DNA of 64,000 bases, from NCBI GenBank assembly GCA_028717785.1, contig JAQUND010000002.1:96926-160925 (forward strand), read 5' to 3'. Source of the stretch: Candidatus Nanoarchaeia archaeon. GTDB lineage: Archaea > Nanoarchaeota > Nanoarchaeia > SCGC-AAA011-G17 > JAFCDX01. Shown in pieces: positions 2,401 to 60,293 of the stretch; position 1 is the stretch's first letter, and each line of letters starts with the position of its first letter. The notes beneath the pieces were generated by a model that was given only the letters and a program-made list of their open reading frames with translations, had not been told where the DNA came from and did no database searches. A program made the translations under genes and the position numbers.

Positions 2401-2847
2401 ATGAAATTAGTTAAAGAAGCTATTTCATTTGAACGAGGAAATAATCCTATGAAAAATTTAGGATTAGGAAGAAAAAATCTAATAGAAAAATGGTTAAATG
2501 AAATGATGATTGAAGATTATAATATAAAAGATGATTATACAATTGATGCATTAAAAGGAAATGTCATAGATTTATCATTTAAAAATTTATTTTATTTTCC
2601 AGAATATATTCAATTTAATAAAGTCGATGGCCATTTTTTTTGTAATAATAATCATTTAATATCATTAAAAGGTTCTCCTATATTTGTAGGAAGAGATTTT
2701 GATTGTAGCGATAATAATTTATTTTCTTTAGAATATTGTCCTTTAGAAGTAAGATGGGGATTGGATTGTAGTAAAAATCCTGGTAAATTTATAAAGGAAA
2801 ATGTTTTAAAATATTGTAAAATAGAGAAAAATAGAATTAAATGTTAA
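2401..2847 (+). CDS. Leader-tagged LRR-like protein (148 aa)
   Basis: Begins MKLVKEAISFERGNNPMKNL then GLG, a member of the recurring leader family. The body has the LRR-like repeat seen in several window proteins: FPEYIQFNKVDGHFFCNNNH, then SLKGSP, then FDCSDNNLFSLEYCP, with a Cys-Asn-Asn ladder. It starts 2 bases after the previous stop. A role as packaged internal protein is inferred from the leader. The repeat type suggests protein binding. Confidence 0.75.
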   Translation: MKLVKEAISFERGNNPMKNLGLGRKNLIEKWLNEMMIEDYNIKDDYTIDALKGNVIDLSFKNLFYFPEYIQFNKVDGHFFCNNNHLISLKGSPIFVGRDFDCSDNNLFSLEYCPLEVRWGLDCSKNPGKFIKENVLKYCKIEKNRIKC

Positions 2848-2854
2848 AATATTT

Positions 2855-3523
2855 ATGAAAGGATACGTTTATATAATTACTAATAATATTGATGGAAAAC
2901 AATATGTTGGCAGTAGAATGGCTTATAAAGGAGAAAATATTTATAATGATTCTTATATGGGTTCAAGTAAATATTTAGATATAGATATTTCTACTTATGG
3001 AATAGAAAATTTTACAAAAGAAATTTTACAGGATAACTATATAGATATTAATGAAATGTTAAAGAGGGAAAGTTTTTATATGCATGAATATAAAACGTTT
3101 GAACCTAATGGCTATAATAGATATGATCCTATTAAAAGAAATGGATTTTATAGCGGAATGAAAGGTAAAAAGCATTCAGATGAAACTAAAAAAAGAATAT
3201 CAGAAAAAGGTAAAATATCTCAAATAGGACATTTTGTTTCTCGTGAAACTAGAATTAAAATAGGAAAAGGAAATTCCAAATCTTTAAAAGGTATTAAATT
3301 TGATGAATATAGAAAAATAAAAATGAGGGGGTGGCATCATTCAGAGGAAGCTAAACAAAAAATTGGACTTTCTTCTAAGAATTCTGAAAGATACACAAAA
3401 GAGAGAAGTTTAAAAATTTGGGAAACTAGAAGAAAAAATGGAAAAGGAAAGATTTCTGATGAGCATAAAAGAAAAATAAGTAAATTTTGGGAAGAAAAAA
3501 GATTAGCTAAAATAAATTTATAA
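2855..3523 (+). CDS. GIY-YIG homing endonuclease with NUMOD3 repeats (222 aa)
   Basis: The N-terminal GIY-YIG nuclease shows YVYIITN (residues 4-10) and KQYVGS (residues 16-21), followed by a glutamate-bearing helix. From about residue 100 there are several NUMOD3-type DNA-binding units (GMKGKKHSDETKKRISEKGK, then HHSEEAKQKIGLSSKNS, then ISDEHKRKISKFWEEK). It is free-standing, 7 bases after a tagged gene and 2 bases before the next. Such genes are selfish elements that cut homologous phage DNA at a recognition site. Confidence 0.9.
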   Translation: MKGYVYIITNNIDGKQYVGSRMAYKGENIYNDSYMGSSKYLDIDISTYGIENFTKEILQDNYIDINEMLKRESFYMHEYKTFEPNGYNRYDPIKRNGFYSGMKGKKHSDETKKRISEKGKISQIGHFVSRETRIKIGKGNSKSLKGIKFDEYRKIKMRGWHHSEEAKQKIGLSSKNSERYTKERSLKIWETRRKNGKGKISDEHKRKISKFWEEKRLAKINL

Positions 3524-3525
3524 AA

Positions 3526-4260: not shown

Positions 4261-4282
4261 AGATATATACAATAAAAATATT

Positions 4283-4951
4283 ATGAAAGGAATTATTTAT
4301 TGTGCAACTAGTCCAAACACAAAAAAATATTATGGACAAACAATCCAAGGATTAGAAAAAAGAAAACAAAGACATAAAAGAGATTTAAATAAAGGAATAA
4401 ATTGGGTTTTTTATCAAGCTTTACGAAAACATGAATGGGAAAATTTTAAATGGGAAATTATAGAAGAATACTCATTTGATAATAAAAAAGAACTTCATTC
4501 TAAATTAAATGAACGAGAAATATATTGGATTTTAAATAATAAAACATATTTTAGAGAATTTGGATATAATATGACTAAAGGGGGAGATAATTATATTCAT
4601 ATTAGAAAACCTTTATCTAAAGAATCTAAAGATAAAATAGCTAAATCTAATTTAGGTCAAAAAAGATCCAAAGAACAAAGAAAGAATATGTCTTTATCTC
4701 AACTAGGTAAACCTCATGCTCAAAATTTTGGTCCTCCTAGGTATGGTAAAGATAATTCTGCATATAAAATAATTTCTCCAGAAGAAGAAATTATAATTTT
4801 AGATCTTTATTTAAATAAAGGATATGGTTCAAGAAAGATTGAAAAATATTTTAACCATAAATTTAGTTTTATAAAAATTTTGAAATTTTTACGTGAAAAA
4901 AAGGTTTGGAAACCTCATAAAATGGATGAAAATATAAATCGAAATAAATGA
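4283..4951 (+). CDS. GIY-YIG homing endonuclease with NUMOD-type units (222 aa)
   Basis: The GIY-YIG core is GIIYCATSP and KKYYGQTIQG near the N-terminus, with R-x-x-x-H basic residues after it. Further on are NUMOD3-like (SKESKDKIAKSNLGQKRSKE) and HTH-like (YLNKGYGSRKIEKYFNHKFS) segments. I place the start at the ATG at 4283. The longer frame from 4244 would overlap the previous gene and adds residues unlike the family. A late-promoter-like stretch (GATATATACAATAAAA, from 4262) precedes this start. The stop overlaps the next start (ATGA). Confidence 0.88.
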   Translation: MKGIIYCATSPNTKKYYGQTIQGLEKRKQRHKRDLNKGINWVFYQALRKHEWENFKWEIIEEYSFDNKKELHSKLNEREIYWILNNKTYFREFGYNMTKGGDNYIHIRKPLSKESKDKIAKSNLGQKRSKEQRKNMSLSQLGKPHAQNFGPPRYGKDNSAYKIISPEEEIIILDLYLNKGYGSRKIEKYFNHKFSFIKILKFLREKKVWKPHKMDENINRNK

Positions 4952-5427
4952 AAATAGTTAAAGAAAATATAAATTTTGAAAGAGGGCAAGAACCTAATAA
5001 ATCTTTAGATATAGGAATAGAAAGTCGTGATGCTCGCCAAACTCATTTTAATAAATTAGAAGCAGAAGGGATAAATTTTTTTCATCCAGGAGATTTTAAG
5101 GAAAATGAAATAATGAAAAAATATTTGGACCATATTTATGAAATTGAAGAAATTATTAGAAAATTACAAAAATTACAAATTTCTATAGAAAGAATTTCTG
5201 GATCTTTAACTATTTATGTTAAAGGTTTTATAATATATGATCCTATTAACCATAAAGAAATTGTATCCTGTTTTGGAGAAAATGAAGCAAAATATTTATT
5301 TAAGGAATTAAATAAATTTTCTTCTAAAGATCATGGGAAATTAGAAATAAATTCGGGGGAAATTTCTATTTATATGGATAGAGATTATCATTTGGATGAA
5401 TTAGAAAAAAATAGAAAATCCTTATGA
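4948..5427 (+). CDS. Leader-tagged protein, tandem paralog 1 of 3 (159 aa)
   Basis: Starts MKIVKENINFERGQEPNKSL then DIG, the recurring leader. The body has YLDHIYEIEEIIRKLQKLQI, a beta region (SGSLTIYVKGFIIYD), then GENEAKYLFKELNKF. This layout is shared with the next two genes, so the three are tandem duplicates. Start and stop overlap both neighbours by ATGA. Function unknown. Packaging is inferred from the leader. Confidence 0.75.
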   Translation: MKIVKENINFERGQEPNKSLDIGIESRDARQTHFNKLEAEGINFFHPGDFKENEIMKKYLDHIYEIEEIIRKLQKLQISIERISGSLTIYVKGFIIYDPINHKEIVSCFGENEAKYLFKELNKFSSKDHGKLEINSGEISIYMDRDYHLDELEKNRKSL

Positions 5428-5912
5428 AAATAGTTAAAGAAAATATTAATTTTAAAAGAGGAAAAGATCCAAAACAATCTTTAGATATAGGAAAAGAAAG
5501 TACTTATTCTAAGGAACAAATTCTTCAAAAATTTTCTGAAATGGGGGTAGAAATTTATATTGATTTTGATCCATTAAATCCCCCTAAAGTTTTGGAAAAT
5601 ATTTATGAAATAAAAAATTATGTTGAAAATTTAATTGATCTTGGGGTAAAACCAAGTGATATAGAAATAGCATATCCAGATTCAGTTTGTGTTAAAGGAT
5701 TTACTGTAAAAGATAGTAATCAAGTTCTACTTCATTGTTTAACTGAAGAAGATGCTAAAATAATAGCAAAAACTTTAGAAAAATTTATGATTGAAGGAAA
5801 TAATATTAATATAGATAGATCTTCTATGAATCCATATATTCATTTTTATAGAAAAAATGATTGGTTAAAAGATTTAAAAGAAAACAGAAAAAAATATGCT
5901 AAAATTAGTTAA
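5424..5912 (+). CDS. Leader-tagged protein, tandem paralog 2 of 3 (162 aa)
   Basis: Leader MKIVKENINFKRGKDPKQSL then DIG. The body repeats the scheme of the flanking genes: LENIYEIKNYVENLIDLGV, IEIAYPDSVCVKGFTV, then TEEDAKIIAKTLEKF. It has diverged strongly from its neighbours apart from the leader, which is closest at the DNA level, so the leader seems under tighter constraint or is being re-copied. Confidence 0.75.
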   Translation: MKIVKENINFKRGKDPKQSLDIGKESTYSKEQILQKFSEMGVEIYIDFDPLNPPKVLENIYEIKNYVENLIDLGVKPSDIEIAYPDSVCVKGFTVKDSNQVLLHCLTEEDAKIIAKTLEKFMIEGNNINIDRSSMNPYIHFYRKNDWLKDLKENRKKYAKIS

Positions 5913-6390
5913 AGAAGCTTTAGATTTTGAAAGAAATCAAGAACCTAAAAAATCAATGAGTATAGGGAAAGAAAGTCTTTATATTAAACAACAAATTTTT
6001 AATAAACTGGAAAAAGATGGAATCCTTTTTCATCATTCTTCAGATGAAAAAGATGAAAAATATTTAATGGATCAATATCTTAAAGATATTTATAAAATAA
6101 AAGAAATTATCCAGAAATTACAAAAATTGAATATTCCTATAATAATTATTACAGGTTCTGCTGAAACATCTATTGGAATATCAATACAAGTTTATCAAAT
6201 TTTAGATGGTAATCATGTAATTTTATCATGTGTAACTAAAGAAGATGCAGAACATTTAATTAAAGAAATGAAAAAATATGCTTTTAGAAATTATGAAAAT
6301 TTTTCAATAAGTGATGATGGGGAAGAAGTTATTTACTTATTTAATACTATTTGGCTTGATGAAACAATAGAAAGAAGAAAAAATTTATGA
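5896..6390 (+). CDS. Leader-tagged protein, tandem paralog 3 of 3 (164 aa)
   Basis: Leader MLKLVKEALDFERNQEPKKS then MSIG. The body is YLKDIYKIKEIIQKLQKLNI, a beta segment, then TKEDAEHLIKEMKKYAF, matching the two preceding genes. The start lies 17 bases inside the previous gene. Its stop overlaps the next start (ATGA). Function unknown. Confidence 0.72.
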   Translation: MLKLVKEALDFERNQEPKKSMSIGKESLYIKQQIFNKLEKDGILFHHSSDEKDEKYLMDQYLKDIYKIKEIIQKLQKLNIPIIIITGSAETSIGISIQVYQILDGNHVILSCVTKEDAEHLIKEMKKYAFRNYENFSISDDGEEVIYLFNTIWLDETIERRKNL

Positions 6391-6791
6391 AATTAGTAAG
6401 AGAAAATTTAAATTTTACTCGAGGAGAAAATCCTATGGATGAATTAAATATAGGAAAAGATTTTTTAATTAAAAAATGGATGTTTTCTATAGGTCTTTAT
6501 GAAAATGATGATTATAAAATTAATGAAGATGGAACTCTTGATGTTTTTGAAGATATAAATTTGTCTGGATTGGGGTTAGAAGAGTTGCCAGAATATATAA
6601 ATTTTAATAAAGTATATAAAAATTTTTATGCAAAACATAATAATTGGAAATCGTTAAAGGGATTTCCAAAAGAAGTCCTCGGAGATTTTTCGATTTATCC
6701 AAAACCTTCAGGAGGTATTATATCTAAATCAAAATGGTTAGAAAATGAAATTAGAAAAAAAATTAAAGTAAATGGAACAGTTTGGTGTTAA
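6387..6791 (+). CDS. Leader-tagged LRR-like protein (134 aa)
   Basis: Leader MKLVRENLNFTRGENPMDEL then NIG. The body shows the LRR-like consensus (LEELPEYINFNKVYKNFYAK, then SLKGFPKEVLGDFSI) with fewer cysteines than its relatives and about one and a half repeats. It sits directly before the metallopeptidase/VWA gene. Confidence 0.72.
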   Translation: MKLVRENLNFTRGENPMDELNIGKDFLIKKWMFSIGLYENDDYKINEDGTLDVFEDINLSGLGLEELPEYINFNKVYKNFYAKHNNWKSLKGFPKEVLGDFSIYPKPSGGIISKSKWLENEIRKKIKVNGTVWC

Positions 6792-6813: not shown

Positions 6814-8355
6814 ATGGAAAAAGCAATAGAGCCTTTTTATCCATTACTTACTTCATTTTTAAATGAAAAAGAAGAATTATTAGATATACCTAAATCTGAA
6901 AAAATAGAAGATATGGGTAAAATTACAGCAGAAGATGGTACAGTAATAGATATGACTTTCCTTAAAAAAGAAATGGAAAGTGCTAAAACTGCTATTGTTT
7001 CTCAAAGCCCTCTTTTTGCTCCTTATGTACATAAATTTGTTCCCATTTATACTTGGTTAGTTCCAACAATGGCAACAGATGGAACAAGACTTTTTGTTAA
7101 TCCAGCTTTTGCAAATAAATTAGAATGGGAACAAAAAATATTTGTTATTATCCATGAGATTATGCATTGTGTACTTCTTCATATGGAAAGAATGAAAGCA
7201 AGAGATGCAATGGTTGTTGGTTCTGATGGTAAACCTGTATCCCTTTTTAATATAGCAGCTGATTTTGAAATTAATGCTATTATTGTAGATACTTTAAATG
7301 ATTTTAATGAAGATTTTATTAAAAAAATACATGGTTTATATGATGTAAAATATCTTAATATTCCAGTAGAACAAATTTATGATGAAATAAAGAAAAATAT
7401 TCCTAAAATGCCTCCTAATCCAAATAAAAATAATAATAAACCTGGTCAAGGAGAGGAAGGTGAAGGAGGAAATGGTAAAAGTAAAGAAGGAGAAGGCGAA
7501 GGAACTGGTAAAGGAAAAGGTAAAGGTAAAAAAGGTAAACCTCAACCTGGTCAAGGAGGGGAAGGTGGTATCTATGATCAAATGGATAGTTATGATCCAG
7601 CAGGAACTGGTTCAATTATTTCTTCTGATGTAGGTAAAAAAATTGCTAAAGAAAGTGGATACGGAGAAGATGAAATAGGGCCTGACGAAAATCCAGTTGA
7701 TAAATGGAGAGTTGAAGGATCAAAATTACTAGAAAGAGCTGAAAAAGGTCAAAAACATGCGGGGAAAGGAAAAGGAACTGCATTAGTAAATGCTCTTTAT
7801 AAATTACATCGAGGAGATGTTAATTGGCAAAATTTATTTCGTAGATATGTTTCGACTGCATTATCTCCAGAAGTTTACCAAAAAATAGGTAATAAAAAAC
7901 ATTTAGGAGGGGAATTTTTAAGATATGGAGAAAAACAAAAACAGGATGCTATGGAACATATAGTTGTAGCTGTTGATGTTTCTGGATCTATGGGAGAAGA
8001 AGCTATTAAAAAAATATTAAATGAAATTAATCAAATTATATTTTCAAAAAGAGTAAATAAAATTACAGTCTTATTTTTTGATGATGGGGTAGATGATAAG
8101 AGTGTTCAAACTATAAAAAGAATGGGAAAACCATATATTCCTAAAAATGTAGCTGGAGGAGAGGGAACTAATTTTCAAAAAGTTCTTGATTGGGTTAACG
8201 AACATTTAAAAGATAGAATATCTCTTATGGTATTTATGACAGATGGAGGAGCTTCTAATCCTAAAAAACCTATTTATGCACATAAATTTATTTGGATGAT
8301 TTATGATAATCCAAGTTGGCAACAACCTTTTGGAAAACAAATTAATTTAGGATAA
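6814..8355 (+). CDS. Metallopeptidase-like / VWA protein, MoxR partner (513 aa)
   Basis: Two domains are visible. The N-terminal half has a zinc-peptidase motif, HEIMH, at residues 114-118. The C-terminal half is a VWA-like domain with a MIDAS motif DVSGSMG at 388-394, and later TDGGASN. They are joined by a Gly/Lys/Glu low-complexity linker (roughly 206-252). This is the architecture of the DUF2201 metallopeptidase plus VWA family, whose members act with MoxR AAA+ ATPases; a MoxR gene lies two genes downstream. I use the ATG at 6814, because the longer frame from 6772 overlaps the preceding gene. Probably an assembly or remodelling complex. The substrate is unknown. Confidence 0.85.
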   Translation: MEKAIEPFYPLLTSFLNEKEELLDIPKSEKIEDMGKITAEDGTVIDMTFLKKEMESAKTAIVSQSPLFAPYVHKFVPIYTWLVPTMATDGTRLFVNPAFANKLEWEQKIFVIIHEIMHCVLLHMERMKARDAMVVGSDGKPVSLFNIAADFEINAIIVDTLNDFNEDFIKKIHGLYDVKYLNIPVEQIYDEIKKNIPKMPPNPNKNNNKPGQGEEGEGGNGKSKEGEGEGTGKGKGKGKKGKPQPGQGGEGGIYDQMDSYDPAGTGSIISSDVGKKIAKESGYGEDEIGPDENPVDKWRVEGSKLLERAEKGQKHAGKGKGTALVNALYKLHRGDVNWQNLFRRYVSTALSPEVYQKIGNKKHLGGEFLRYGEKQKQDAMEHIVVAVDVSGSMGEEAIKKILNEINQIIFSKRVNKITVLFFDDGVDDKSVQTIKRMGKPYIPKNVAGGEGTNFQKVLDWVNEHLKDRISLMVFMTDGGASNPKKPIYAHKFIWMIYDNPSWQQPFGKQINLG

Positions 8356-10007
8356 TGGGAATATTAAGAGAATCATTAGATTTTGAACGTATTGAATCTC
8401 CTTTAGAAAAAATGAGGATAGGAAAAAAAGAATCCGACTTAATTTTTATAAAAGAACATGAATGGGATCTTTCACTTCCCCATATTTTTAGAGATTTTAC
8501 TATAGAAGAATTAATAAGGAATTTTAATAATATTCCAATATTAGTATTAAAATCTAATACTACTATACCTACATATGTAGCTATTTCAACAAATTATCAT
8601 TCAGATCATAAAAATACTCCAAAAGAAGCAATAGCAGAATTAAAATTAGATCTTTTTGACATTAAAGAATCCTTAACATTTACTCGGGAAGGATCTAATT
8701 TAGAAAAAATAGGAATTGGAAAAACTGCTATTATAAAAGATATTTTAAATCAATTATGTATAGAAAGATTTAATGTTTTCCAAAATTCCCCAACAATTTA
8801 TAAAAAAGAAATACAAAATATTAAATCTATTCCAGAAAATTTAAAAGAACTTAATGAAAAAAATGCAATTCTTTTATCAAGAGAGGATTTTTTAAATTTA
8901 TATAAATCAGATTCTAAATACATACCTTATTTAGATGAAATTTTAGAAAGAATAGCAAATTTTAATCCAAATAAATTTGACTATCATAGAACTTGGACTG
9001 AAGTTTTTTGGGATTTAAATAAAATAGATATGCTTTTTAATTCTCCTAATAACTGGGTTACTGATGAAAATATTCATATTTTAATGGATTACAAAGAAAA
9101 GAAAACTATAGAAAAGATTAAAGAATTAGATCCTAATAAAATTTTTTCTATTTGTAGTCAAAAAAATTGGTATCCTGAATTAATACTTTATGCTATTGAT
9201 CACGGAGCTACTAATTTAAATATAGGATCTAATGAAGCAATAAGAAGAGCTTGTGAAAAGGGGGAATCATTTATAGCTGAAAGATTATTAAAAGATCCTT
9301 CTGTTGATCCTACTCAAAATACTCCTGATGGTAAAAGATATAAACAAGATGAAGCTAATTTTTGTATAAGAAGAGCTGCAAAAAACGGTCATTTAGAAAT
9401 AGTAAAATTATTATTAAAAGATGGCAGAAGTAATCCAGCTTATAGAAATAATTTTGCTCTTTCTGCTGCTATAACTAATAAAGATAAACCTATGATGGAT
9501 CTTTTATTATCTGATAAAAGAGTTAGGGAAGCAGTAAAATATATGCCTAAAACTAAACAAGATGAATTAAGATTTATGAAATTAGTTAAAGAATCTTTAT
9601 TATCATTTGAAAGAAATAAAGATGCTTTTTCTTCTTTGAATATTGGAATGATAGATAAAGTTCAGCGATTTATGGAAAATCTTAAAAATGAATTTCCTGA
9701 ATCTAATTGGAAATGGAAAATAAATTCGAATCTTTCTGTAGATATTTTTTGGCCAGAATTTTATAAAGATAGAAATCCTATTTTTGATATATCAATAGAT
9801 GAATATGGTTTATTACCTTTTTATATAAAATTTAATAAAATAGAAGGGGATTTTGCTTGTAGTTTTACATCTAAGGAATCATTAAAATCTTTCCCAAAAT
9901 TTATAAAAGGTAAATGTGAAATATTTGGGAAAAAAAAGAAAGAATTTAATGAAACTGATATTAGATCTATTTGTAAAATAGAAAAAGATTTAAAAATTTA
10001 TCCATGA
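8355..10007 (+). CDS. Three-module leader-tagged protein with ankyrin repeats (550 aa)
   Basis: Contains three copies of the leader motif. The first (about residues 3-23) precedes a YKGFPIL-type domain. The second (about 103-122) precedes a helical region and ankyrin-like repeats (NGHLEIVKLLLKDGRSNP near residues 345-365). The third begins at Met 408 (base 9576) and precedes an LRR-like tail ending in ICKIEKDLKIYP. It looks like three tagged genes fused in frame; the third still has an ATG where a separate gene would start. Its start overlaps the previous stop by one base (TAATG). Confidence 0.8.
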   Translation: MGILRESLDFERIESPLEKMRIGKKESDLIFIKEHEWDLSLPHIFRDFTIEELIRNFNNIPILVLKSNTTIPTYVAISTNYHSDHKNTPKEAIAELKLDLFDIKESLTFTREGSNLEKIGIGKTAIIKDILNQLCIERFNVFQNSPTIYKKEIQNIKSIPENLKELNEKNAILLSREDFLNLYKSDSKYIPYLDEILERIANFNPNKFDYHRTWTEVFWDLNKIDMLFNSPNNWVTDENIHILMDYKEKKTIEKIKELDPNKIFSICSQKNWYPELILYAIDHGATNLNIGSNEAIRRACEKGESFIAERLLKDPSVDPTQNTPDGKRYKQDEANFCIRRAAKNGHLEIVKLLLKDGRSNPAYRNNFALSAAITNKDKPMMDLLLSDKRVREAVKYMPKTKQDELRFMKLVKESLLSFERNKDAFSSLNIGMIDKVQRFMENLKNEFPESNWKWKINSNLSVDIFWPEFYKDRNPIFDISIDEYGLLPFYIKFNKIEGDFACSFTSKESLKSFPKFIKGKCEIFGKKKKEFNETDIRSICKIEKDLKIYP

Positions 10008-10038: not shown

Positions 10039-11592
10039 ATGAAAAAAATATTAGTTAATGAATCTCTATTGGAGTTTCAAGCTCAAAATTTAAAAATAGA
10101 TGAAGGCTTATTTGGAAAAGCCCTTGGAGCTATAAAAAAGTTTTTCCAAAAAATAGGAAATTTCTTTTTTTTCATGTTAAATGGATCTCCAATAGTAGAA
10201 TCTATAGCTCCAGTTAATATAGGTATTATGGATAAATCGGGGATGCTTAATAAATCTGCAATCTCTTATGTTCCCTCTTCAGCTGATTTAGAAATTGCTC
10301 CTGAATTGAGTAGTTTAAATGCAAAAGTCTTATTAGATAAAAGAGGAGGAGATGATACTGTAAATGAATGTTTTGTTGATTCAATTAATGAAGCAAAAAT
10401 TGCTCTTGAACATCCAGATAAAAATGTTCCCAATATAGATAAAAAATCTCTTTATCGAAGAATTCGTATAGTAATTGCTAATCCAAATGCAAAACCTCTT
10501 ATGATATGGGGAGCTCCTGGTATTGGAAAAACTGCAATAGTAAAAGCAGTTTTAATTGTTACTAAAAAAGGTAGACTTATAGATATTCAAACTTCTAAAA
10601 TGGCTCCAGATGATTGGGCTTTACCAGCTACTTATAAAATGGGTGAAGAAATTAAAGCTAGAGATATTCCTAAATCCTGGTTACCTGTTTATATTCCTAC
10701 TGGAAATGCTGAACAAGATAAAAAATTAGATGAGATAGCAAATATGGGGGAAGGAGGAGTAATATTCTTAGATGAACTTTCTCGTGCATCTGGATCAGTT
10801 CAAAATACTTGTTTAAAACTTATTGATGAAAGAATAATCGGGGATGCTAAATTAGGATCTAAATGGTCTATTGTATCTGCATCTAATAGAGCTGGGGATG
10901 ATCCTGAAGGTGTTCAAAATTTTTCTACTGCTCTTGGTAATAGATTTTCTCAAGTAAATTATATTCCTGATTTTAAATCATGGAAAGAATGGGCAATTGA
11001 TAAAGTAGATCCACGTATTTTAGATTTCTTAGAATTTAATCAAGAATATTTTTATACATTAGACGATGATCCGGAAAAAAGTATTTTTGCATCTCCTCGT
11101 TCATGGGAAGCTGCTTCTAATAATATTGCTTTATTAATGCAGGATGCTAAAGATCAAGGAACAAATGTAAGTATAAAAGATATTACTGAAGTAGTTGGTT
11201 CTGATGTTGGAATGGATATTGCTACAGAATTTCAAGCTTTCTTACGTCTTCTTGAAACATTTAAAAAAGAAGATATTAAAGAAGTTCTTACTCATCCTGA
11301 TAAAGCTCGTATGCCTAAAAAAGCTGGTTCTGGATATGATCAAGCTGAAGCTAATGCTCTTATTTCACTTGTTTGTACTTCAACCAGAGGAAGAGAATTA
11401 ACCCCTGATGAATTTTCTAAATATGTAGAATATTTAATTAGACTTAATAATCCATCTCTTGCTACAAGAGGTTTAAAATTAATGCTTGAAATTCATCCTT
11501 ATATCCACGATGAATTAGGTGAAGTAGCAGGTAAAGATAAATACAAAGCTGGTGTAGATGCTTTTATTGAAAAATACAAAGAGATTTTTTAA
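10039..11592 (+). CDS. MoxR-family AAA+ ATPase (517 aa)
   Basis: Walker A GAPGIGKT is at residues 158-165 and Walker B VIFLDE ends at 245-246, followed by a sensor-like region (SASNRAGDDPE) typical of MoxR/RavA ATPases. About 130 extra residues precede the AAA core. They begin MKKILVNESLLEFQ, leader-like at the I-L-V-N-E-S step but without the F-x-R-G-x-x-P part. It probably powers the metallopeptidase/VWA protein encoded upstream. In cellular systems such pairs act as chaperones that insert cofactors or remodel complexes. The phage target is unknown. Confidence 0.9.
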   Translation: MKKILVNESLLEFQAQNLKIDEGLFGKALGAIKKFFQKIGNFFFFMLNGSPIVESIAPVNIGIMDKSGMLNKSAISYVPSSADLEIAPELSSLNAKVLLDKRGGDDTVNECFVDSINEAKIALEHPDKNVPNIDKKSLYRRIRIVIANPNAKPLMIWGAPGIGKTAIVKAVLIVTKKGRLIDIQTSKMAPDDWALPATYKMGEEIKARDIPKSWLPVYIPTGNAEQDKKLDEIANMGEGGVIFLDELSRASGSVQNTCLKLIDERIIGDAKLGSKWSIVSASNRAGDDPEGVQNFSTALGNRFSQVNYIPDFKSWKEWAIDKVDPRILDFLEFNQEYFYTLDDDPEKSIFASPRSWEAASNNIALLMQDAKDQGTNVSIKDITEVVGSDVGMDIATEFQAFLRLLETFKKEDIKEVLTHPDKARMPKKAGSGYDQAEANALISLVCTSTRGRELTPDEFSKYVEYLIRLNNPSLATRGLKLMLEIHPYIHDELGEVAGKDKYKAGVDAFIEKYKEIF

Positions 11593-11597: not shown

Positions 11598-12047
11598 ATG
11601 AAACTTGTTAGAGAGAATATATTTGAATTTCAGAGGGGTGCAGATCCCTCTGAAATTTTAGAATTAGGCCGTCTTCAAAAAACAATAGATTGGTTAAAAC
11701 CATATTTATTTAGATCCTCATATTCTATTAATCAAGATTGGACAATTGATATTAAAAAAGATTTTATTGTAACTAATTCTATGCCTAATTTAGAGGAATT
11801 TCCTGAATTTATTCAATTTAACATATGTTACGGAAGTTTTATCAATAGAAGTCATCAATTTATTTCAATGATAGGATGTCCTAAAATAGTTTATGGTGAT
11901 TTTTTAGTAGATGGAAATAAATTGCAAGTTCTTACAGGATGTCCAAAACAAGTAAATGGGGATTTTTATATACAAGATAATGATACTAAATTTACTGAAA
12001 ATGAAGTACGCAAAATCTGTCAAATAAAAGGAAAATTAAAAGTATGA
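11598..12047 (+). CDS. Leader-tagged LRR-like protein (149 aa)
   Basis: Leader MKLVRENIFEFQRGADPSEI then LELG, a slightly degenerate copy with one extra residue. The body has LEEFPEFIQFNICYGSF, then SMIGCPKIVYGDFLVDGNK, then VLTGCPKQVNGDFYIQDND, showing the 21-residue LRR-like period. It ends KICQIKGKLKV, like the other LRR-like members. The stop overlaps the next start by ATGA. Confidence 0.75.
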   Translation: MKLVRENIFEFQRGADPSEILELGRLQKTIDWLKPYLFRSSYSINQDWTIDIKKDFIVTNSMPNLEEFPEFIQFNICYGSFINRSHQFISMIGCPKIVYGDFLVDGNKLQVLTGCPKQVNGDFYIQDNDTKFTENEVRKICQIKGKLKV

Positions 12048-12529
12048 AACTTGTTAAAGAATCGTTAAAGTTTGAAAGAGGTCAAGATCCGATGGATGCT
12101 TTAAATATAGGGGATCCTAGAATTCGAGAAATACATAAAAATTATCAAAATATAAAATCTATCATTGAAACTGGGGTAGCTGAAGAATTAATGTTTGGAG
12201 AATTCAGACATAAAATAGATAAATTAAAAGAAATTATGGATTATGTGGTAATAAATCATATAAGAAATAAATTTAAAATTGATGCTAAATTTGAAACTGA
12301 ATCAAATAAATTTGGTTCAGGTAGTAATTTATTTGCTATAGCATATATAGGTCCTTATAAATATGAATTTAGAAAAAATGGAGTAGGATCTACTTATTGG
12401 ACAGAAATTAAAGGACTAAATTTACCAGAAAGCCCTGAAAAAAAAGCTTATCTTAAACTAACTTCACAATCTACATCTTTAAAAAGTTTTGATTCTAAAC
12501 TATCAAATTTATTAAAAAAATATTATTAA
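12044..12529 (+). CDS. Leader-tagged protein of unknown function (161 aa)
   Basis: Leader MKLVKESLKFERGQDPMDAL then NIG. The remainder is a helical segment (residues 25-80) followed by a beta-rich region (AIAYIGPYKYEFRKNGVGS) and a short helical tail. No family recognised. Confidence 0.72.
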   Translation: MKLVKESLKFERGQDPMDALNIGDPRIREIHKNYQNIKSIIETGVAEELMFGEFRHKIDKLKEIMDYVVINHIRNKFKIDAKFETESNKFGSGSNLFAIAYIGPYKYEFRKNGVGSTYWTEIKGLNLPESPEKKAYLKLTSQSTSLKSFDSKLSNLLKKYY

Positions 12530-15304: not shown

Positions 15305-15667
15305 ATGATACAAGATCTTTATATTAGAAGTCCTCAAGATCCAAATTATAAATATGGAGTTTATTCTCATTCTGATCCTATCGAGAGTATAATTGCAAAA
15401 ATTCGTATGATTTTAGGAACTACTCAAGGACAAGTTCTCGGAGATTTACAATTTGGGGTAGGAGTAGAAGATCTTATATTTGAAACTCGTATTAATAAAA
15501 TAGAGTTAGAAGAAAAAATTTCAAAACAAATTTCCCAATATATTTCTGAAGCTTCACAATATAAAATATCTCCATCAGTATCTTTTGGAAAAGCTGATGG
15601 CTATGATTATTGTGTTATAGATATTTATATTAATGATCAGAGAACTATAGGGGTATTAGTTAAATAA
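15305..15667 (+). CDS. gp25-like baseplate wedge protein (120 aa)
   Basis: Matches the gp25/W family in length and pattern: an N-terminal DPIESIIAKIRMILGT, then GQVLGDLQFGVGVEDLIFET, a helix (EEKISKQISQYIS) and a beta finish. In contractile tails this protein sits in the inner baseplate wedge and starts sheath assembly. It heads the baseplate operon, behind a TATAAATA box, with the gp6-like gene two genes later. Confidence 0.88.
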   Translation: MIQDLYIRSPQDPNYKYGVYSHSDPIESIIAKIRMILGTTQGQVLGDLQFGVGVEDLIFETRINKIELEEKISKQISQYISEASQYKISPSVSFGKADGYDYCVIDIYINDQRTIGVLVK

Positions 15668-25163: not shown

Positions 25164-25167
25164 AATA

Positions 25168-27206: not shown

Positions 27207-27243
27207 TTTATAATTCAACTTTATTTTATTTATCTTTATAAAA

Positions 27244-50825: not shown

Positions 50826-51512
50826 TTAATTATACATATATCCTGTTATTGATGCTCCATATAGAGGTTGTAAATTCATCATATTATAAACTTCTATATA
50901 ATCTATCATTGTCCAGGTTTCTCTTTGTCCACCAATAAATTTAAAATCCTTTTGATCTCCTATTGATGCAGTAGGTAAATAACCCCCAGTGTATACTATA
51001 CGAATTTTCTCTTCAGAGGTTTTCCAAAGTTCTATAGTTCCATTTTTCATGTATTTCATATCGAAACCCGGACCGGTTCCTTTTACAACATTAACTTTAC
51101 CCATAGAAATTATATCAGAAAATCCTCTTTTATTTGAAACTTCTATTTTTTCCCAAGATTCTGGGGATCTTCTACTTGCAGGTTGTTTTTCAACAGGAAT
51201 TCTGCTATAAGCTTCTTCAATAGCATCTTCATTATCACCAACTGAATTCATTGATGCCATTACTTTAATATTTTGAATACTTGTTTCACCAGTTAAATCA
51301 CAAGCTCGCTGAAAAAAAATTCCGGCAATAGGAGAATAAAGGCTTTTATAAACTTCTATAGCTGCCCATCCTCGAGCTAAAGCTTTTCCAGGTTCTTCAA
51401 TCTCATTAGCCATTCTATAAGCTAATTTAAAGGCTTCAATTAAATCTCCATTTGATTTTTTTTGGATATCCATAAGCCTCATCAAATCTTTTGTTCCGTA
51501 TTGTGTTACCAT
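50826..51512 (-). CDS. Unknown protein, paralog of the virion-associated protein at 25168 (228 aa)
   Basis: Shares GTKDLMRLMDI (versus GQKDLVRMQDI) at the N-terminus and a C-terminal domain with LQPLYGASITGYMYN and GGYLPTASIGDQKDFKF. The middle (AFKLAYRMANEIEEPGKALA, then AAIEVYKSLYSPIAGIFFQR) is helical. Function unknown. Confidence 0.65.
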   Translation of the reverse strand: MVTQYGTKDLMRLMDIQKKSNGDLIEAFKLAYRMANEIEEPGKALARGWAAIEVYKSLYSPIAGIFFQRACDLTGETSIQNIKVMASMNSVGDNEDAIEEAYSRIPVEKQPASRRSPESWEKIEVSNKRGFSDIISMGKVNVVKGTGPGFDMKYMKNGTIELWKTSEEKIRIVYTGGYLPTASIGDQKDFKFIGGQRETWTMIDYIEVYNMMNLQPLYGASITGYMYN

Positions 51513-51526
51513 TTTATTTAAAGTTT

Positions 51527-52393
51527 TTATATTATTTGATATTCCTTAAATATAGATTTCATTGTATTAGGGCTAAAACCAAAATAAATTGCAGTCTTTC
51601 TTATAGATTTTAAATTATTTAAAGTTTTTATAATATCTTCTTTTTTCGGTCTTATTTTCTTTTTAAATTTAGTATTTCCTCCAGAATTTTTTAACCAATT
51701 TATTTTTATATTATAATAATTACATATAGTTTCTAAAGTTGGATGAGAAATATTTAATTTTTTTGATACTTCAGTTTTAGTTTTATATTTTTTGATATAT
51801 TCTAAAGTTTTTTCTTTAGAAGGCCATTTTTTTCTTTTTGTTTCAATAGATTTTTTATATGATTCTTCCGTCCAAGTTTTTTTAGGAGATATAGAATTTT
51901 CAGAAATTTTTTTCTTATGACTATCAGATAATAATTTACCTTTATGAGATAAAGATATTTTCTTTTTACACTCTTCTGATAAAGATTTTCTTTTTTTACC
52001 TTTATCTGATCTTGTTCTATAACTTCCTACTCCATCCCCTTCTTTAGTTATATTTGTTAAAGGCCCTTCTTTTAAATGACTTCTTCCTATTAAATTTACT
52101 AATTTTTCTTCTAATAATAAAGCTTCTTTATTAATTAAATTACAATTAATTATTTTTATAATAGGTTGAATATTATTATTTTTAAAATAATATAATTTAT
52201 TTTTAAAATGTAAATTAGTCCATTTTCCATTATTATTTAAAACTTTTTTCCAATGATAATAAGCTCTATAATATTTTCCTTTACCTATATAAAAAGGTTC
52301 AAAATTAAAAGAAATATTATCATATTCATAAATTCCATATTTTGTAGGATCTAAATAAGCATATACATAATAAATATTATTTTCCATAGACAT
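51527..52393 (-). CDS. GIY-YIG homing endonuclease with NUMOD3 and HTH units (288 aa)
   Basis: The GIY-YIG core is YYVYAYLDP, then PFYIGKGKYYRAYYH (about residues 8-45), with Arg and an E-x-x-L-V-N helix later (LLLEEKLVNLIGRSH). Then come NUMOD3 units (RKSLSEECKKKISLSHKGKL, SDSHKKKISEN) and HTH-like DNA-binding tails (KTKTEVSKKLNISHPTLETI, SIRKTAIYFGFSPNTMKSIF). It has its own TATAAATA promoter box. Confidence 0.9.
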   Translation of the reverse strand: MSMENNIYYVYAYLDPTKYGIYEYDNISFNFEPFYIGKGKYYRAYYHWKKVLNNNGKWTNLHFKNKLYYFKNNNIQPIIKIINCNLINKEALLLEEKLVNLIGRSHLKEGPLTNITKEGDGVGSYRTRSDKGKKRKSLSEECKKKISLSHKGKLLSDSHKKKISENSISPKKTWTEESYKKSIETKRKKWPSKEKTLEYIKKYKTKTEVSKKLNISHPTLETICNYYNIKINWLKNSGGNTKFKKKIRPKKEDIIKTLNNLKSIRKTAIYFGFSPNTMKSIFKEYQII

Positions 52394-55048: not shown

Positions 55049-56080
55049 TTAATTTAATTCATTTTCCATCATTATTTTTACAATATCTTTGAATTTAGTT
55101 TTAGCTTCCCATCCTAATATTTTTTTAGCTTTTGAAGAATCCCCGAGTAAAAATTCTACTTCAGATGGTCGATAATATTTTTCATCAATTCCAATAACTT
55201 CCTTCCATTCTTTCATATCCCATAAAATATCTCTTCCTTCTTCATCTTTTTTCCACTGAAATATATCTTTTATATCTTTTGGAAGATAATTTAAACATTC
55301 ATCGATAAATTCTCTTATAGTATGAGTTTCACCAGTTGCAAGAACAAAATCATCAGGAGTTTCTTGTTGTAACATCATCCACATTCCTTTAACAAAATCA
55401 GGAGCATATCCCCAATCTCTTTTAGCATTTAAATTTCCGAGATAAAAAGTTTCACCAATTTTAAGATATTTTGTAAGTCCTTCAACTATTTTTTTTGTAA
55501 CAAAAGTAGATCCTCTTCTTTCGCTTTCATGGTTAAATAAAATGCCATTACAAGCAAAAATATTATAAGCTTCTCTATAATTTTTAACTATCCAAAAGGC
55601 ATATATTTTAGATACTCCATAAGGACTTCTAGGATAAAAGGGGGTGGTTTCTTTTTGAGGAACTTCTTGAACTTTACCAAAAAGCTCACTTGTAGCTGCA
55701 TTATAAAAACGAGTATTTGGACAATGTTTTCTTATAGCTTCAAGCATATTTAAAGTTCCTATTGCATCTGTTTGAGCAGTATATCCAGGAACATCAAAAG
55801 ATACTTTTACATGAGATTGTGCAGCTAAATGATAAATTTCATCAGGTTTAATTTTATGTATAATTTGATCAATAGAAAGAGCATCCGTAACATCTCCATA
55901 ATGTAAATGAAGTTGATTAAAAATATGTTCTATTCTTTGAGTATTAAATGATGAAGAACGACGAATAATTCCATGAACTTCATATCCTTTTTCAAGAAGA
56001 AATTCAGCAAGGTAACTCCCGTCCTGACCATTTATTCCACTGCAGAGGGCGATGGGTTTTTTAATATTTAAATTTTTCAT
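55049..56080 (-). CDS. gmd: GDP-mannose 4,6-dehydratase (343 aa)
   Basis: [20 protein letters not shown] (14-33) is the Gmd NAD(P)-binding motif. Active-site TSE ([13 protein letters not shown]) and Y-x-x-x-K ([11 protein letters not shown]) follow, with the family signature [15 protein letters not shown]. It makes GDP-4-keto-6-deoxymannose for the adjacent fucose synthase. Product fucose could decorate phage proteins, host surface or DNA. Confidence 0.93.
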
Positions 56081-56771
56081 TCATATAATTTTTAAAAAAT
56101 ATTATCCAATTTTCTCTATTAAAATTTGTTTTCATGTGATCTTTATGGCAAAGAGTAATTAAATTTTCTTCTAAATTATTTAATTTATTGTAATCAATAT
56201 GATGTACATCCTTTCCATTTCCCTTACAAATAGCACATTTATAATTATCTCTTTCTCTGATTTTATTTCTTAAAGTTCTATTAAATTTTTCATCATACGG
56301 ATTTTCAGATATCCCTCCATACCAACCTCCATTTTTATTCCCTCTTAATTTATATCCCTTTCCATACATTGGATTCTTTTTCCCTTTACAATCTTGATGA
56401 TTTTTACTAATTTTTGCTTTATGCTCATCTGAACAATGTTTTCCATAAAACCCATTTCGTTCTCCTAAACTAGATAAAGACATTTTTATTTTTGTTTCTT
56501 CAGAAGCTTTTTTTCCAATTTGAGTTAATTTAAATTTTTCAATGAATTCTTTAGAATGTTTTTTTCCATAAAATCCATTTCGTTCTCCCGAATTAGATAA
56601 AGACATTTTTATTTTTGTTTCTTCTGAATGTTTTCTTCCTTCATTTCTTTTACCATTATTAGATTTAGCACACAATGAAGAACAAAATTTTCTTTTATAA
56701 GATTTTTTATTATTAAGATTTACAAAAAATTCTTTTTCACATTCAAGACATATTCTAATTTCTTGCATCAT
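56061..56771 (-). CDS. HNH homing endonuclease with NUMOD3 repeats (236 aa)
   Basis: The N-terminus has a C-x-x-C...C-x-x-x-C zinc finger ([17 protein letters not shown]), then NUMOD3 units: [30 protein letters not shown] and others, two of them near-identical tandem copies. The C-terminal HNH is [20 protein letters not shown] followed by CHKDH. It is inserted at the start of the fucose operon, its stop overlapping the Gmd gene by 20 bases, so it probably arrived later without breaking it. Confidence 0.9.
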
Positions 56772-56827: not shown

Positions 56828-57334
56828 ATGAATATAGTTAAAGAATCATTAGATTTTGAAAGAGAAGGAACTCCTTTTAAAAAACTTAATATAGGAGTAA
56901 AAAAATCAATAGAAAATTGGTTAGAAAACCATAATATTTATAATTATGTAATAAATGAGGAAGAAAATAATTATATTTATTCTAAACAAAATATATTTTT
57001 ACATTTATGTAATTTAGTAAAATTACCCGATTATATACAATTTTTTATAGTTGATGGTACTTTTACAATCCATAGAAATAAATTAATATCATTAAAAGGT
57101 TGTCCTATAAATGTTTTAGGATCATTTTCATGTCATAATAATAAATTAAAATCATTAGATGGATGCCCAGAATTAGTTAAAGAAAATTTTTCTTGTAATG
57201 ATAATTTATTAACATCATTAGACGGATGTCCAAAATTAGTAGGGGGAAATTTTTATTGTAAAAATAATAAAGTAAAATTTACAAGAAAAGATGTATTAGC
57301 AAGATGTAAAGTTAAAGGATCTATATCTGTATAA
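56828..57334 (+). CDS. Leader-tagged LRR-like protein with three clear repeats (168 aa)
   Basis: Leader MNIVKESLDFEREGTPFKKL then NIG. The body has the clearest LRR-like array: LISLKGCPINVLGSFSCHNN, LKSLDGCPELVKENFSCNDN, LTSLDGCPKLVGGNFYCKNN, a 21-residue period ending KCKVKGSISV-like. It is the only tagged gene on the plus strand between two minus-strand blocks. Confidence 0.8.
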   Translation: MNIVKESLDFEREGTPFKKLNIGVKKSIENWLENHNIYNYVINEEENNYIYSKQNIFLHLCNLVKLPDYIQFFIVDGTFTIHRNKLISLKGCPINVLGSFSCHNNKLKSLDGCPELVKENFSCNDNLLTSLDGCPKLVGGNFYCKNNKVKFTRKDVLARCKVKGSISV

Positions 57335-57444: not shown

Positions 57445-58123
57445 TTAAGATAACGATTTCCAATCTATTACACTTTTTATAGATTCTTCAGCTTCTTCAA
57501 TAGTTTTTGATGGGGAACCACCAAATCCTTTTATTGACATACCAATATAGGGTTTATTTTCAGATGAAGTATCTTTTAAAATAAGTATAGGAAGCCCTTT
57601 ATAATTTCTTATAAATTTAATTTTTTTAACATTAGGAAATAATGGAGGTACACTATCTATATCCCAATTCCATTCTGTATTTTTTATAATTTGTCGATCA
57701 ATTTCTTTTTGACCTATACCAATTTTTTCTATAGGGGAACCTTCTCTATTAAATTCTAATCTTTCTGATAATCCGGTTCTTCTAATATAATTGCTAATTC
57801 TTTTTTTCATATATTTTATAGCTTCTTCTTTAGTTTCATATGCTGAAGTTTCATCCATAGTAGAAGTAGCCATATATAATAAAATTTTAGTAGTTCTTTT
57901 ATTATCAATTTCATAAACAAGTATAGGAAACCCTTTATAATTTCTAATTAAATCAATAGGTTTAACTCTTTTAAAAAAAATCAGGATTACGAAAAGAACG
58001 AGTAGTGTACCAATCGGTTTCTTTAATAAACTTTTTATTATCTTCTTGACCAATTCCCATCTTTTTGATAGGAGAACCTATTCTATTAAAATTTAAGGAT
58101 TCTCTTACTATATTAGTAATCAT
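57445..58123 (-). CDS. Two-module leader-tagged protein interrupted by a frameshift at an 8-T run
   Basis: From the ATG at 58123 the frame reads TNIVRESLNFNRIGSPIKKM then GIGQEDNKKFIKETDWYTTR, a normal leader and start of the module, but stops after a run of eight T (57973-57980). The continuation (RVKPIDLIRNYKGFPILVYE) lies one frame on; with seven T the frame is continuous. A second leader copy (LEFNREGSPIEKIGIGQKEI) and YKGLPIL module follow. So this is a slippage site, a recent mutation or an assembly error. A 202-residue frame from 58053 in the downstream reading frame is not a natural start. Confidence 0.7.
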
Positions 58124-59450
58124 AAAGCCAAGATTTTATTTTTTCTTCTGCTTCTTCTGGGGTATCATATAAATCAGGTTCATCCATATAAGGTTCTCCA
58201 CAATCAGAAGTTCCTCTATATTGAATTTTTCTATTTCTTTTAATCTCGGTTATTTTTATCCAATAAGGTTTCCATTCAAAAACTTTTAAAAGTTTTTCAT
58301 CCGGATCATTCCAATCCCAATCTATTTTAGCAGCTTTTTGTCGAAGAATTTCTTGTTGTCCCATATCCATTTTCTCAATAGGAGTTCCTTTTCTTTCAAA
58401 ATTTATAGATTCCCCCATTAAATAAAGATGTTTATCTATTTCCTCTTTTATAAATTTTATAGCATTTTCTGGAGTTTTAAAATAAAAAGAGCCAAAATTA
58501 AATGGACTAAAAGCTATATAAGGTAATGCAAATATGGATTCATTAGTACCTCTTTTTAATACTAATATTGGATTCCCTCTATAATTACGAATTAAATCAA
58601 TAATTTTATATCCATTATTTTTAAAATAATCTATAGTAAATCCATTCCAAATAGTATCTTCTATAATTTTTCTATCTATAGTAGATTTTCCTATATCCAT
58701 TTTTTTAATGGGATTACCACTTTTAGTAAAATTTAGAGATTCTTTTATCTTATTAGATAATATTTGATCTATTTTAGATTTAGTATCATCTTCAGCTTCC
58801 TTAGGGGTTTTACAATATTGATAACTAACTTGAGGAGTAAATACAATAGAGGGAACAGCTATATAAGGTAATTTTAAATCATCCTTATCTTTTAAAATTA
58901 AAATATTAACTCCTTTATAATTTTTAGTTAAATTAATAACTTCATAATTATCTTTTTTTAAATCTTCAATAGTCCAATTATCCCATAAAGTATTTTTTAT
59001 AATTTGTCGGTCAATTTCCTTTTGACCTATATCCATTTGTTCAATAGGAGTTCCTGATCTTTCAAAATTTATAGATTCTTTTACTATTTTATCTGCTATT
59101 TTATCTATATAAGTTTTTTCTATAGCAACGGATTCTTCTGGATTTTCAAATATAATAGGTTTTTCTTTACCTAAATATGGGTTATATGTATTTGATATAG
59201 ACATAAATCCTAAAGAATCAGATTCATCTGTAGGAAAAATTTCAGAGGTTTTAATTAAATATCCTTTATATTCTATAATATCAAAAATTTTTTCATCATA
59301 ATTAAAATAAATATTATAATCCCAATCAGTTTTAGCATCTATTTGTTTAAGATGTTCTATTTGACCTATACCTAATTTATCAAATGGGATTCCTCCCCTA
59401 TTAAATTTTTGTATTTTTTCTAATGATTCCTTTATAAAGAGGGCTTTCAT
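58113..59450 (-). CDS. Four-module leader-tagged protein (445 aa)
   Basis: The best example of tandem modules. Leader copies begin near residues 6, 123, 235 and 345: IKESLEKIQKFNRGGIPFDK, VKESINFERSGTPIEQMDIG, IKESLNFTKSGNPIKKMDIG, GESINFERKGTPIEKMDMG. Each is followed by the same roughly 110-residue domain (TEDWxx, then IxxYKGxxILxL, YIAxx, then TPEEAxxxIKxxID). The arrangement is like a polyprotein of four units. It overlaps the start of the next gene by 11 bases. Confidence 0.85.
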   Translation of the reverse strand: MKALFIKESLEKIQKFNRGGIPFDKLGIGQIEHLKQIDAKTDWDYNIYFNYDEKIFDIIEYKGYLIKTSEIFPTDESDSLGFMSISNTYNPYLGKEKPIIFENPEESVAIEKTYIDKIADKIVKESINFERSGTPIEQMDIGQKEIDRQIIKNTLWDNWTIEDLKKDNYEVINLTKNYKGVNILILKDKDDLKLPYIAVPSIVFTPQVSYQYCKTPKEAEDDTKSKIDQILSNKIKESLNFTKSGNPIKKMDIGKSTIDRKIIEDTIWNGFTIDYFKNNGYKIIDLIRNYRGNPILVLKRGTNESIFALPYIAFSPFNFGSFYFKTPENAIKFIKEEIDKHLYLMGESINFERKGTPIEKMDMGQQEILRQKAAKIDWDWNDPDEKLLKVFEWKPYWIKITEIKRNRKIQYRGTSDCGEPYMDEPDLYDTPEEAEEKIKSWLYDY

Positions 59451-59944
59451 TTATTTCCTAATTTTTGTATGAATTCTTCTAAATTCTTTTTTTGATCTTG
59501 TAATTCTTGTATATTTTTATTAATATTCTTTATTTTTTCTTTTACTTGTTTTAAATCCCCATATTTTTCTTTAGTAAGATATTTAATTATTTTTTCACCA
59601 GTATAATCACTATCTACTAATATATTTCCATCTTCATCTGCTAATTGAAACCCATAATCTCCAATATCTTCAAATTGTTCTTTAGCAATTTTTTTAGTAG
59701 CATAGGATAATTGATAACTATTAATTATATTATCAGAATTATCTAAATCATCTAAAATAAATTCCCTTACTTCTGGACCATATTGAAAACTGTCATTTTC
59801 TGTAGCATATATTCTTAATTTTTCTAATGCTTTTTTAAAATCTTTTACAATTCCTTTCCATCCTCTACCAATATCTAATTTAGTTAAGGGATTAGATTCG
59901 CTTCTATCAAAATTAAGATTAATATTTTCTTTTACTATTTTCAT
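59447..59944 (-). CDS. Leader-tagged helical protein (165 aa)
   Basis: Leader KIVKENINLNFDRSESNPLT then KLDIGRGW. The rest has a globular middle and a coiled-coil-like end (NKNIQELQDQKKNLEEFIQK). Its first ~80 bases are nearly identical to those of the next gene upstream (see findings). It overlaps the four-module gene by 4 bases. Confidence 0.75.
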   Translation of the reverse strand: MKIVKENINLNFDRSESNPLTKLDIGRGWKGIVKDFKKALEKLRIYATENDSFQYGPEVREFILDDLDNSDNIINSYQLSYATKKIAKEQFEDIGDYGFQLADEDGNILVDSDYTGEKIIKYLTKEKYGDLKQVKEKIKNINKNIQELQDQKKNLEEFIQKLGNK

Positions 59945-59954
59945 TTAACTTAAC

Positions 59955-60293
59955 TTACATTACTGAAGCACTGGCACTAAAATAACGATTAAGAGGATCA
60001 TATAATTCATTGATTGCATCTTTAATAGATACATCCTCCCATAAATCATAAACAGTTCTTTTAATTAAAGTATAATCTCCTGTCATATCAGTAATCATTT
60101 TTTCTACTGATTCAGCAGTAATATCTACATACTTTCGAAATTTTTCATTAGGCCATTTTTCTATAAGGCCATTTACTACTTTAACAATATAATATTCAAG
60201 TTCATTCCATCTTTTACCAATATCTAATTTAGTTAGTGGATTAGATTCACTTCTATCAAAATTAAGATTAATATTTTCTTTTACTATTTTCAT
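59955..60293 (-). CDS. Leader-tagged protein, duplicated 5' end (112 aa)
   Basis: Leader KIVKENINLNFDRSESNPLT then KLDIGKRW, almost identical to the preceding gene in the map. After the tag the bodies differ (LEYYIVKVVNGLIEKWPNEK, then MITDMTGDYTLIKRTVYDLW). Unknown function. The shared leader with unrelated body is direct evidence of module exchange. Confidence 0.75.
   Translation of the reverse strand: MKIVKENINLNFDRSESNPLTKLDIGKRWNELEYYIVKVVNGLIEKWPNEKFRKYVDITAESVEKMITDMTGDYTLIKRTVYDLWEDVSIKDAINELYDPLNRYFSASASVM

Follow-up and report, generated by a model that had tools for sequence, protein, structure and literature searches.

A repeated leader-like tag on the proteins of a Lak-related phage: a probable signal for head targeting and prohead-protease cleavage

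The 64,000-nt stretch of DNA analysed here (contig JAQUND010000002.1, positions 96,926-160,925; called the window, with coordinates counted from its first letter) raises a question. Why do so many of its proteins, with very different bodies, carry the same short peptide, often directly at the N-terminus? By its sequence, the window is part of a myophage, distant kin of Lak. The window's baseplate wedge protein (16387-18282) shares 42% identity with the Lak-A2 counterpart, and it has matches in 31 phage records (Prevotella 15, uncultured 6, Tenacibaculum 5, Chryseobacterium 2, Sphingomonas 2 and Flavobacterium 1). By this kinship, its phage is presumably of jumbo size. We propose that the peptide, or tag, is probably a head-targeting leader combined with a prohead-protease site, that it works like the capsid targeting sequence (CTS) of phage T4, and that its internal copies split polyproteins in the head.

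The tag and the modules behind it

An iterative hidden Markov model (HMM) search of the window's stop-to-stop frames of at least 30 aa found 30 tag copies on 21 frames at an independent E-value (i-E) <0.05; with a 29-row model, A1, 29 copies spread over 20 frames score at least 13 bits. None of 20 within-frame shuffles yielded a copy at 13 bits (top score 8.7), and a model trained on the left part alone (14 rows, up to 19 kb) picks up 15 copies beyond 19 kb (i-E <0.01). The repeated motif of the original prediction is thus real, and the region given for it, 2401 to 60293, runs from the first to the last tagged gene. Glu, Phe and Gly are invariant across 29 aligned copies. Third codon positions agree at 0.729 over 21 window tags, where codons drawn at random for those residues give 0.681; third positions lie near background, which means that the repeat is kept mainly at the protein level. 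The term leader peptide suits the 18 of 30 copies that are N-terminal and not the 12 that are internal, as assigned by reading of the search results. Two to four tags each are found on frames 58113-59450, 8346-10007, 25956-27296, 23772-25211 and 15664-16371.

The bodies behind the tag had been described as sharing nothing else. Within the window this fails for the recurring families, which are YKGFPIL (10 modules), LRR-like (leucine-rich repeat) and the 4948/5415/5878 trio; between these families no link was found. Among the earlier body labels, ankyrin is borne out by an Ank_2 match in 8355-10007 (32.3 bits, Pfam cut-off 27.3), whereas four proteins called LRR-like by eye have no Pfam LRR match. 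Over five records, namely the window and four relatives, BLAST sorts 265 modules into 140 body clusters; unrelated bodies share the tag. In a scan of 148 tagged proteins (19/19 in the window and, among related records from IMG/VR, which carry G and L numbers here, 24/24 in G002, 45/47 in G001 and 60/63 in G006), ankyrin families, none with more than 15 members, were the only ones of the 25 of 26 Pfam families listed that matched more than one protein. The body of 6387-6791 shares 49% identity with the final module of a G002 protein that has five tags, and 12530-13465 shares 38% with the second module of a two-tag L029 protein. Single-tag proteins of the window thus match single modules of multi-tag proteins elsewhere, so that the tag marks the starts of modules, whether these are genes of their own or fused.

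In both AlphaFold2 models that we made, the tag is predicted to be disordered: pLDDT (predicted local distance difference test) over the first 20 residues is 41-44 in the module at 58680-58751 and 31-40 in 12530-13465. The bodies are folded, with 72 of 110 residues at pLDDT ≥90 in the former and a mean of 78 over 311 residues in the latter. For neither body model did Foldseek find a PDB chain at E ≤0.001.

On the forward strand, the iterative search of the window frames places N-terminal copies at 2407-2478 (gene 2401-2847, LRR-like by eye), 4954-5025 (gene 4948-5427), 5430-5501 (gene 5424-5912), 5905-5976 (gene 5896-6390) and 6393-6464 (gene 6387-6791, LRR-like by eye). Gene 8355-10007 carries three tags: an N-terminal one at 8361-8432 with a YKGFPIL body, an internal one at 8658-8729 followed by ankyrin repeats, and another at 9585-9656 whose body is LRR-like by eye. 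N-terminal copies follow at 11607-11678 (gene 11598-12047, LRR-like by eye), 12050-12121 (gene 12044-12529) and 12533-12604 (gene 12530-13465). Gene 15667-16371, which adjoins the baseplate wedge gene, has an N-terminal copy at 15673-15744 and an internal one at 16000-16071. The remaining forward copies, both N-terminal, are at 18294-18365 (gene 18285-18665, YKGFPIL body) and 56834-56905 (gene 56828-57334, LRR-like by eye).

On the reverse strand, gene 23772-25202 holds internal copies at 24546-24617 and 24183-24254, the latter with a YKGFPIL body. Gene 25956-27266 has three tags, N-terminal at 27123-27194 and internal at 26781-26852 and 26238-26309, the two internal ones each with a YKGFPIL body. 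The N-terminal copy at 31841-31912 belongs to gene 31595-31924, next to a baseplate hub-like gene. Four tags are carried by gene 58113-59450, one N-terminal (59355-59426) and three internal (59016-59087; 58680-58751, the module modelled above; 58350-58421), and single N-terminal copies stand at 59861-59932 (gene 59447-59944) and 60210-60281 (gene 59955-60293). The short frame 57971-58135 has an N-terminal copy at 58040-58111, and frame 57445-58077 has an internal copy at 57703-57774 with a YKGFPIL body; the two overlap in different frames, which looks like a split gene. A degenerate internal copy lies at 25507-25578 in gene 25168-25962, which starts MRARFVNE. This gene and 50826-51545 are a paralogue pair, the first with an MRARFVNE-ELNE-G leader besides its degenerate tag, the second starting near the body without the leader; G002 has both kinds as well, at 106899 and 83646. 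The window, with a GC (guanine plus cytosine) content of 25.5%, further holds three homing or HNH endonuclease-like genes (18948-19706, 51527-52393 and 56061-56771).

Three dialects, one in each record

The second half of the tag occurs in three versions, or dialects: A, LxFxRGxxPxxxMxIG; B, KFxEESDPIxDMGIG; and C, xDVLKPKSxEEI. By reading, A and B have a common core, F-x4-[DE]-P-x3-[ML]-x-[IL]-G, from which C differs. A scan of called genes at 13 bits gave 28 A copies on 19 of 83 genes in the window (28 and not 30 because overlapping frames were dropped from the gene set), 37 A copies on 24 of 200 genes in G002, 56 C copies on 47 of 316 genes in G001, 87 B copies on 63 of 479 genes in the 405-kb record G006, and 58 B copies on 30 of 80 genes in G007. 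These are 266 copies over five records, with a single dialect in each and no mixing. The same scan found no dialect copy in pieces of Lak-A2, LR756501 and MaF61. A wider census at 15 bits or more finds copies in 60 contigs or loci; among the 52 with two or more, 51 have a single dialect and the exception has 5 B and 1 C. This census includes some near-duplicate contigs, and many of its contigs were fetched by dialect patterns, so that the five-record gene scans are the cleaner test.

Body clusters that span dialects number 8 of 140 and hold 96 modules; the body of 12530-13465, for instance, can be aligned at 23% identity with a G001 protein that carries dialect C. Since bodies cross dialects while the dialect stays constant within a record, the tag follows the phage and not the body. 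This is what is expected if one partner reads the tag, and points to one recogniser per phage.

The dialect-A model finds nothing at E ≤10 in Lak-A2, LR756501, MaF61, G004, G005 and G001, the last of which uses dialect C, and tblastn with two 32-residue consensus leaders finds nothing at E ≤10 in the phage collection. A strict dialect-A DNA pattern matches 0 viral contigs; a looser one matches 37 stretches in viral contigs, and patterns for B and C match 27 and 11. The collection of bacterial and archaeal genomes contains no stretch that matches the exact A or B pattern. Mainly cellular hits would, by the original prediction, have spoken against it; judged by exact DNA patterns only, the hits are not mainly cellular. 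In protein databases, the tag region of 4948-5427 retrieves 2 proteins, one being the window's own, and a dialect-B query retrieves 33, three of them with ankyrin domains.

Likeness to head-targeting leaders and prohead cleavage sites

What would such a partner read, and where would it take the protein? A head-targeting leader common to many unrelated internal proteins is a principle known from T-even phages. According to the available text of PMC3012670, T-even internal proteins are a diverse set in which only the CTS is conserved, and in that of PMC12373910, T4 Ip1-3 share only their leader and inhibit different GmrSD enzymes. In the T4 record, ipII and ipIII start with MKTYQEFIAEA; window-type leaders are MKAKFVYES, MRAKFVNE, MKIVKES and similar. 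Glu stands in register in 32/33 (A), 57/59 (B) and 22/25 (C) N-terminal copies. The resemblance between the tag and the T4 CTS is judged by eye, the sequences being too short for a statistic, and is bridged by the intermediate leader MKTFNQFINES-VRDKMTPKSKEDI and two similar ones (L186-L188), whose second half resembles dialect C. We counted leaders as hydrophobic-x-Glu-[SNAG] at residues 6-12. The excess over expectation is strong in the window (18 vs 2.7) and G001 (43 vs 9.9), moderate in G007 (7 vs 2.0), G006 (30 vs 15.2) and G002 (13 vs 7.7), and little in the pieces of LR756501 (5 vs 2.0) and MaF61 (1 vs 1.8). The counts are too low, because the first Met was taken as the start and because dialect B has Lys after Glu.

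A gp21-like protease (PF03420) and a gp23-like capsid protein (PF07068), another likeness to T4, score over cut-off in G002 and G006. In G001 the protease was not found and the capsid match is below cut-off, and in G007 neither was found; both records are fragments. The capsid proteins of G002 and G006 have ALNE-A close to the N-terminus, and those of Lak-A2, LR756501 and MaF61 have LNE, MNE and IYE in comparable places. In G001, a short frame (137722-138267) starting LMNEDVMGG looks by eye like a capsid-protein start with the same cut site. The prohead protease has a long C-terminal region in G002 (60753-63302, a frame of 849 aa) and G006 (306658-309021, a frame of 787 aa), which may act as a scaffold; in the PAU record, protease and scaffolding are separate genes. 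This putative protease-scaffold fusion tops the [ILVMF]NE excess in both records (9 vs 1.27 expected in G002, 11 vs 1.44 expected in G006), and in the window, G001 and G007, where no protease was identified, the top protein is a different one.

Phage PAU is a cultured relative. Its annotated capsid maturation protease shares 34% identity with the G002 protease and 33% with that of G006. The available part of PMC5646251 (Table 1 and its footnote) gives the PAU capsid protein 585 residues, 520 of them in the mature form by N-terminal sequencing; a cut after LME64 (LME64-N) would leave 521, one off from that number. A leader pattern is matched by 26 of the 290 PAU genes scanned, and with Asp allowed after Glu the leader count is 29 against 16.9 expected. 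Across the whole record, the leader MK-x-LYE begins four of the five coding sequences noted 'internal capsid protein' (gp142, gp154, gp199 and gp270), and the one noted as scaffolding starts in the same way.

N-terminal and internal copies can be compared by means of T4 IPIII, in which, according to the available text of PMC9026906, targeting depends mainly on residues 4 and 7 and processing on residues 8 and 10. Residue 10 is Glu, position 7 aligns with tag P4 and position 8 with P3. We took FILVMYW as hydrophobic and chose copies with Glu in register, omitting 28 ambiguous copies and 6 without Glu in register; the Fisher tests are uncorrected. P4 is hydrophobic in 31/34 N-terminal against 14/26 internal copies in dialect A (Fisher 0.002) and in 39/76 against 12/54 in dialect B (Fisher 0.001). 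P3 is hydrophobic in 30/34 against 22/26 in dialect A and in 25/26 against 12/16 in dialect C (0.06). In a separate count with another split, Glu is in register in 29/32 (A), 86/86 (B) and 21/31 (C) internal copies. In dialects A and B, though not in C, the internal copies resemble cut sites with part of the address missing. Mainly because they relax P4 and mostly keep the cut-site residues, we read the multi-tag proteins as polyproteins.

We propose the following. The first half of the tag, hydrophobic-hydrophobic-x-Glu, would send the new protein into the prohead core, where the prohead protease would cut after its Glu. The second half (in dialect A, LxFxRGxxPxxxMxIG) would be disordered and would be recognised by a single partner in each phage, for which the scaffold or protease-scaffold protein is the likeliest candidate; it differs between phage lineages. 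Internal copies would be further cut sites: a multi-tag protein may be loaded as one polyprotein, cut apart within the head to give individual small effectors, and later ejected with the DNA. The modular tag with a targeting job that had originally been suggested, for which no destination was named, fits well with one dialect per record, the match to likely prohead-protease sites, the likeness to the T4 CTS and the PAU leaders.

Among known systems, the T4 CTS of IPI-III, processed by gp21, comes close: a short N-terminal peptide with hydrophobic-x-Glu, shared as leader only by diverse bodies. The tag differs in standing on tens of genes per phage, against three in T4, in having internal copies in multi-module proteins and lineage-specific dialects, and in its conserved residues beyond the predicted cut. 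It is a defining feature of a T4-type CTS that the targeting residues stand entirely before the cut and are removed, and for this reason we liken the tag to a CTS without classing it as one. Propeptides of ejection proteins in the giant phages phiKZ and SPN3US are similar: many proteins are packed, a diverged gp21 homologue cleaves head proteins after Glu, and the first 15 residues of SPN3US gp53 and gp54 are identical. They differ in that several propeptides exceed 100 residues, and a short tag on tens of proteins was not met in the available text of PMC5694885, the source for these phages. The PAU internal-capsid leader (MK-x-LYE-A) is likewise short and belongs to a related phage with a homologous protease; by eye, with no profiles run there, the listed PAU leaders have no second half of dialect A, B or C. 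In the literature available to us, mostly outside subscription, we recognised no published account of this tag, its scale, its internal copies, its dialects or its core after the cut.

Some further genes touch on this subject. A G002 protein (27380-27841, L071) has the tag at its Met and then a body weakly like the gp23 capsid family (14.7 bits, below cut-off), possibly a capsid-protein fragment carried as cargo. The window gene 14013-14633 encodes a C39-like peptidase (Pfam 2.4e-15) with the leader-like start MKKNFLSLSDYLKES and is a candidate packaged protease. The AAA ATPase at 10039-11592 (phrog_1297) starts with MKKILVNES, and a similar G002 protein with MKKQLVFES.

Counter-evidence, alternatives and meaning for the phage group

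Several results weigh against a head-targeting leader with a cut site. Unlike in T4, the conserved A, B and C cores lie downstream of Glu and would remain part of the cleaved protein. In dialect B, Glu is mostly followed by Lys (52/76 N-terminal, 35/54 internal copies), where the capsid protein has Ala, and in G002 5 of the 37 copies lack the Glu, their first residues being those of the core. The address argument has its own difficulties: dialect C has no P4 contrast (15/26 N-terminal vs 8/16 internal), the dialect-A contrast also appears at P6 (24/34 vs 8/26), where the start Met counts as hydrophobic, and hydrophobic P3 falls in dialect B from 76/76 N-terminal to 49/54 internal copies (0.011). 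The head genes of the window's own phage lie outside the window, and G001 and G007, as said, gave no protease. Among relatives found by the baseplate gene alone, 21 of 34 have copies and 13 have none over 15 bits in the DNA at hand, with leader-like starts of other kinds in some of the 13 (L015, L018 and L023). Lak-A2 has a related protease and capsid protein and little leader excess (17 vs 13.1, first 400 of 541 kb). Reading TAG as Gln (code 15) in its positions 1-400000 (L193-L212) raises gene coverage from 0.82 to 0.95 and makes the leader signal no clearer (16 vs 12.1). In PAU, gp70, noted as an internal capsid protein, and the 'internal capsid vertex' proteins gp1 and gp10 lack the leader, and the notes in that record could be circular.

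Considering that one dialect per record implies a common reader and not the head as such, the tag could direct proteins elsewhere, to a replication compartment or the inner membrane, with the hydrophobic-x-Glu match a coincidence. A nucleus-like compartment is formed by some jumbo phages, and import into it is selective, according to the available text of PMC11087766. We regard another destination as unlikely: in PAU, proteins with the leader bear the note 'internal capsid protein', the nucleotide and DNA enzymes identified in the window are all untagged, and the phiKZ nuclear shell protein, with phiKZ as positive control, has no match in G006, G001 or G002, which is a weak negative. Several tagged genes stand beside the baseplate wedge, hub and gp25-like genes, and the tag might be a dock for tail or baseplate assembly. 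This seems quite improbable, considering that the tail genes identified in the window have no tag and that tagged genes in G006 are scattered over the record, two of them adjoining the protease and capsid genes.

The two other alternatives concern the origin of the repeat. Some body families are clearly paralogous, and all tagged genes might descend from one ancestor whose best-kept piece is the N-terminus. The 265 modules in 140 clusters and the predicted disorder of the tag in two models, where a folded core would be looked for, make such ordinary paralogy about as hard to credit as the tail dock. The matches between single-tag proteins and modules of multi-tag proteins would also suit a homology cassette by which bodies are shuffled through recombination, with no role at the protein level. 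This is very improbable, because residues are conserved while third codon positions stay near background, and because dialects differ between records although the bodies are common to them.

A wider form of the head-targeting proposal, dialect-coded effector loading, is tentative and somewhat less likely true than not: on up to 63 genes per record, the tag would load effectors and polyproteins that are cut in the head, a lineage-specific scaffold would be the reader, and dozens of effectors would be delivered. If the proposal holds, a short sequence pattern would name the likely injected protein set of uncultured phages in this group, most of it otherwise unannotated. It would show how one phage can load dozens of effectors together, and would suggest that phages make cargo polyproteins, with a testable co-variation of dialect and reader. 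As T4 internal proteins block host restriction enzymes (available text of PMC12373910), counter-defence proteins could then reasonably be sought in the tagged set.

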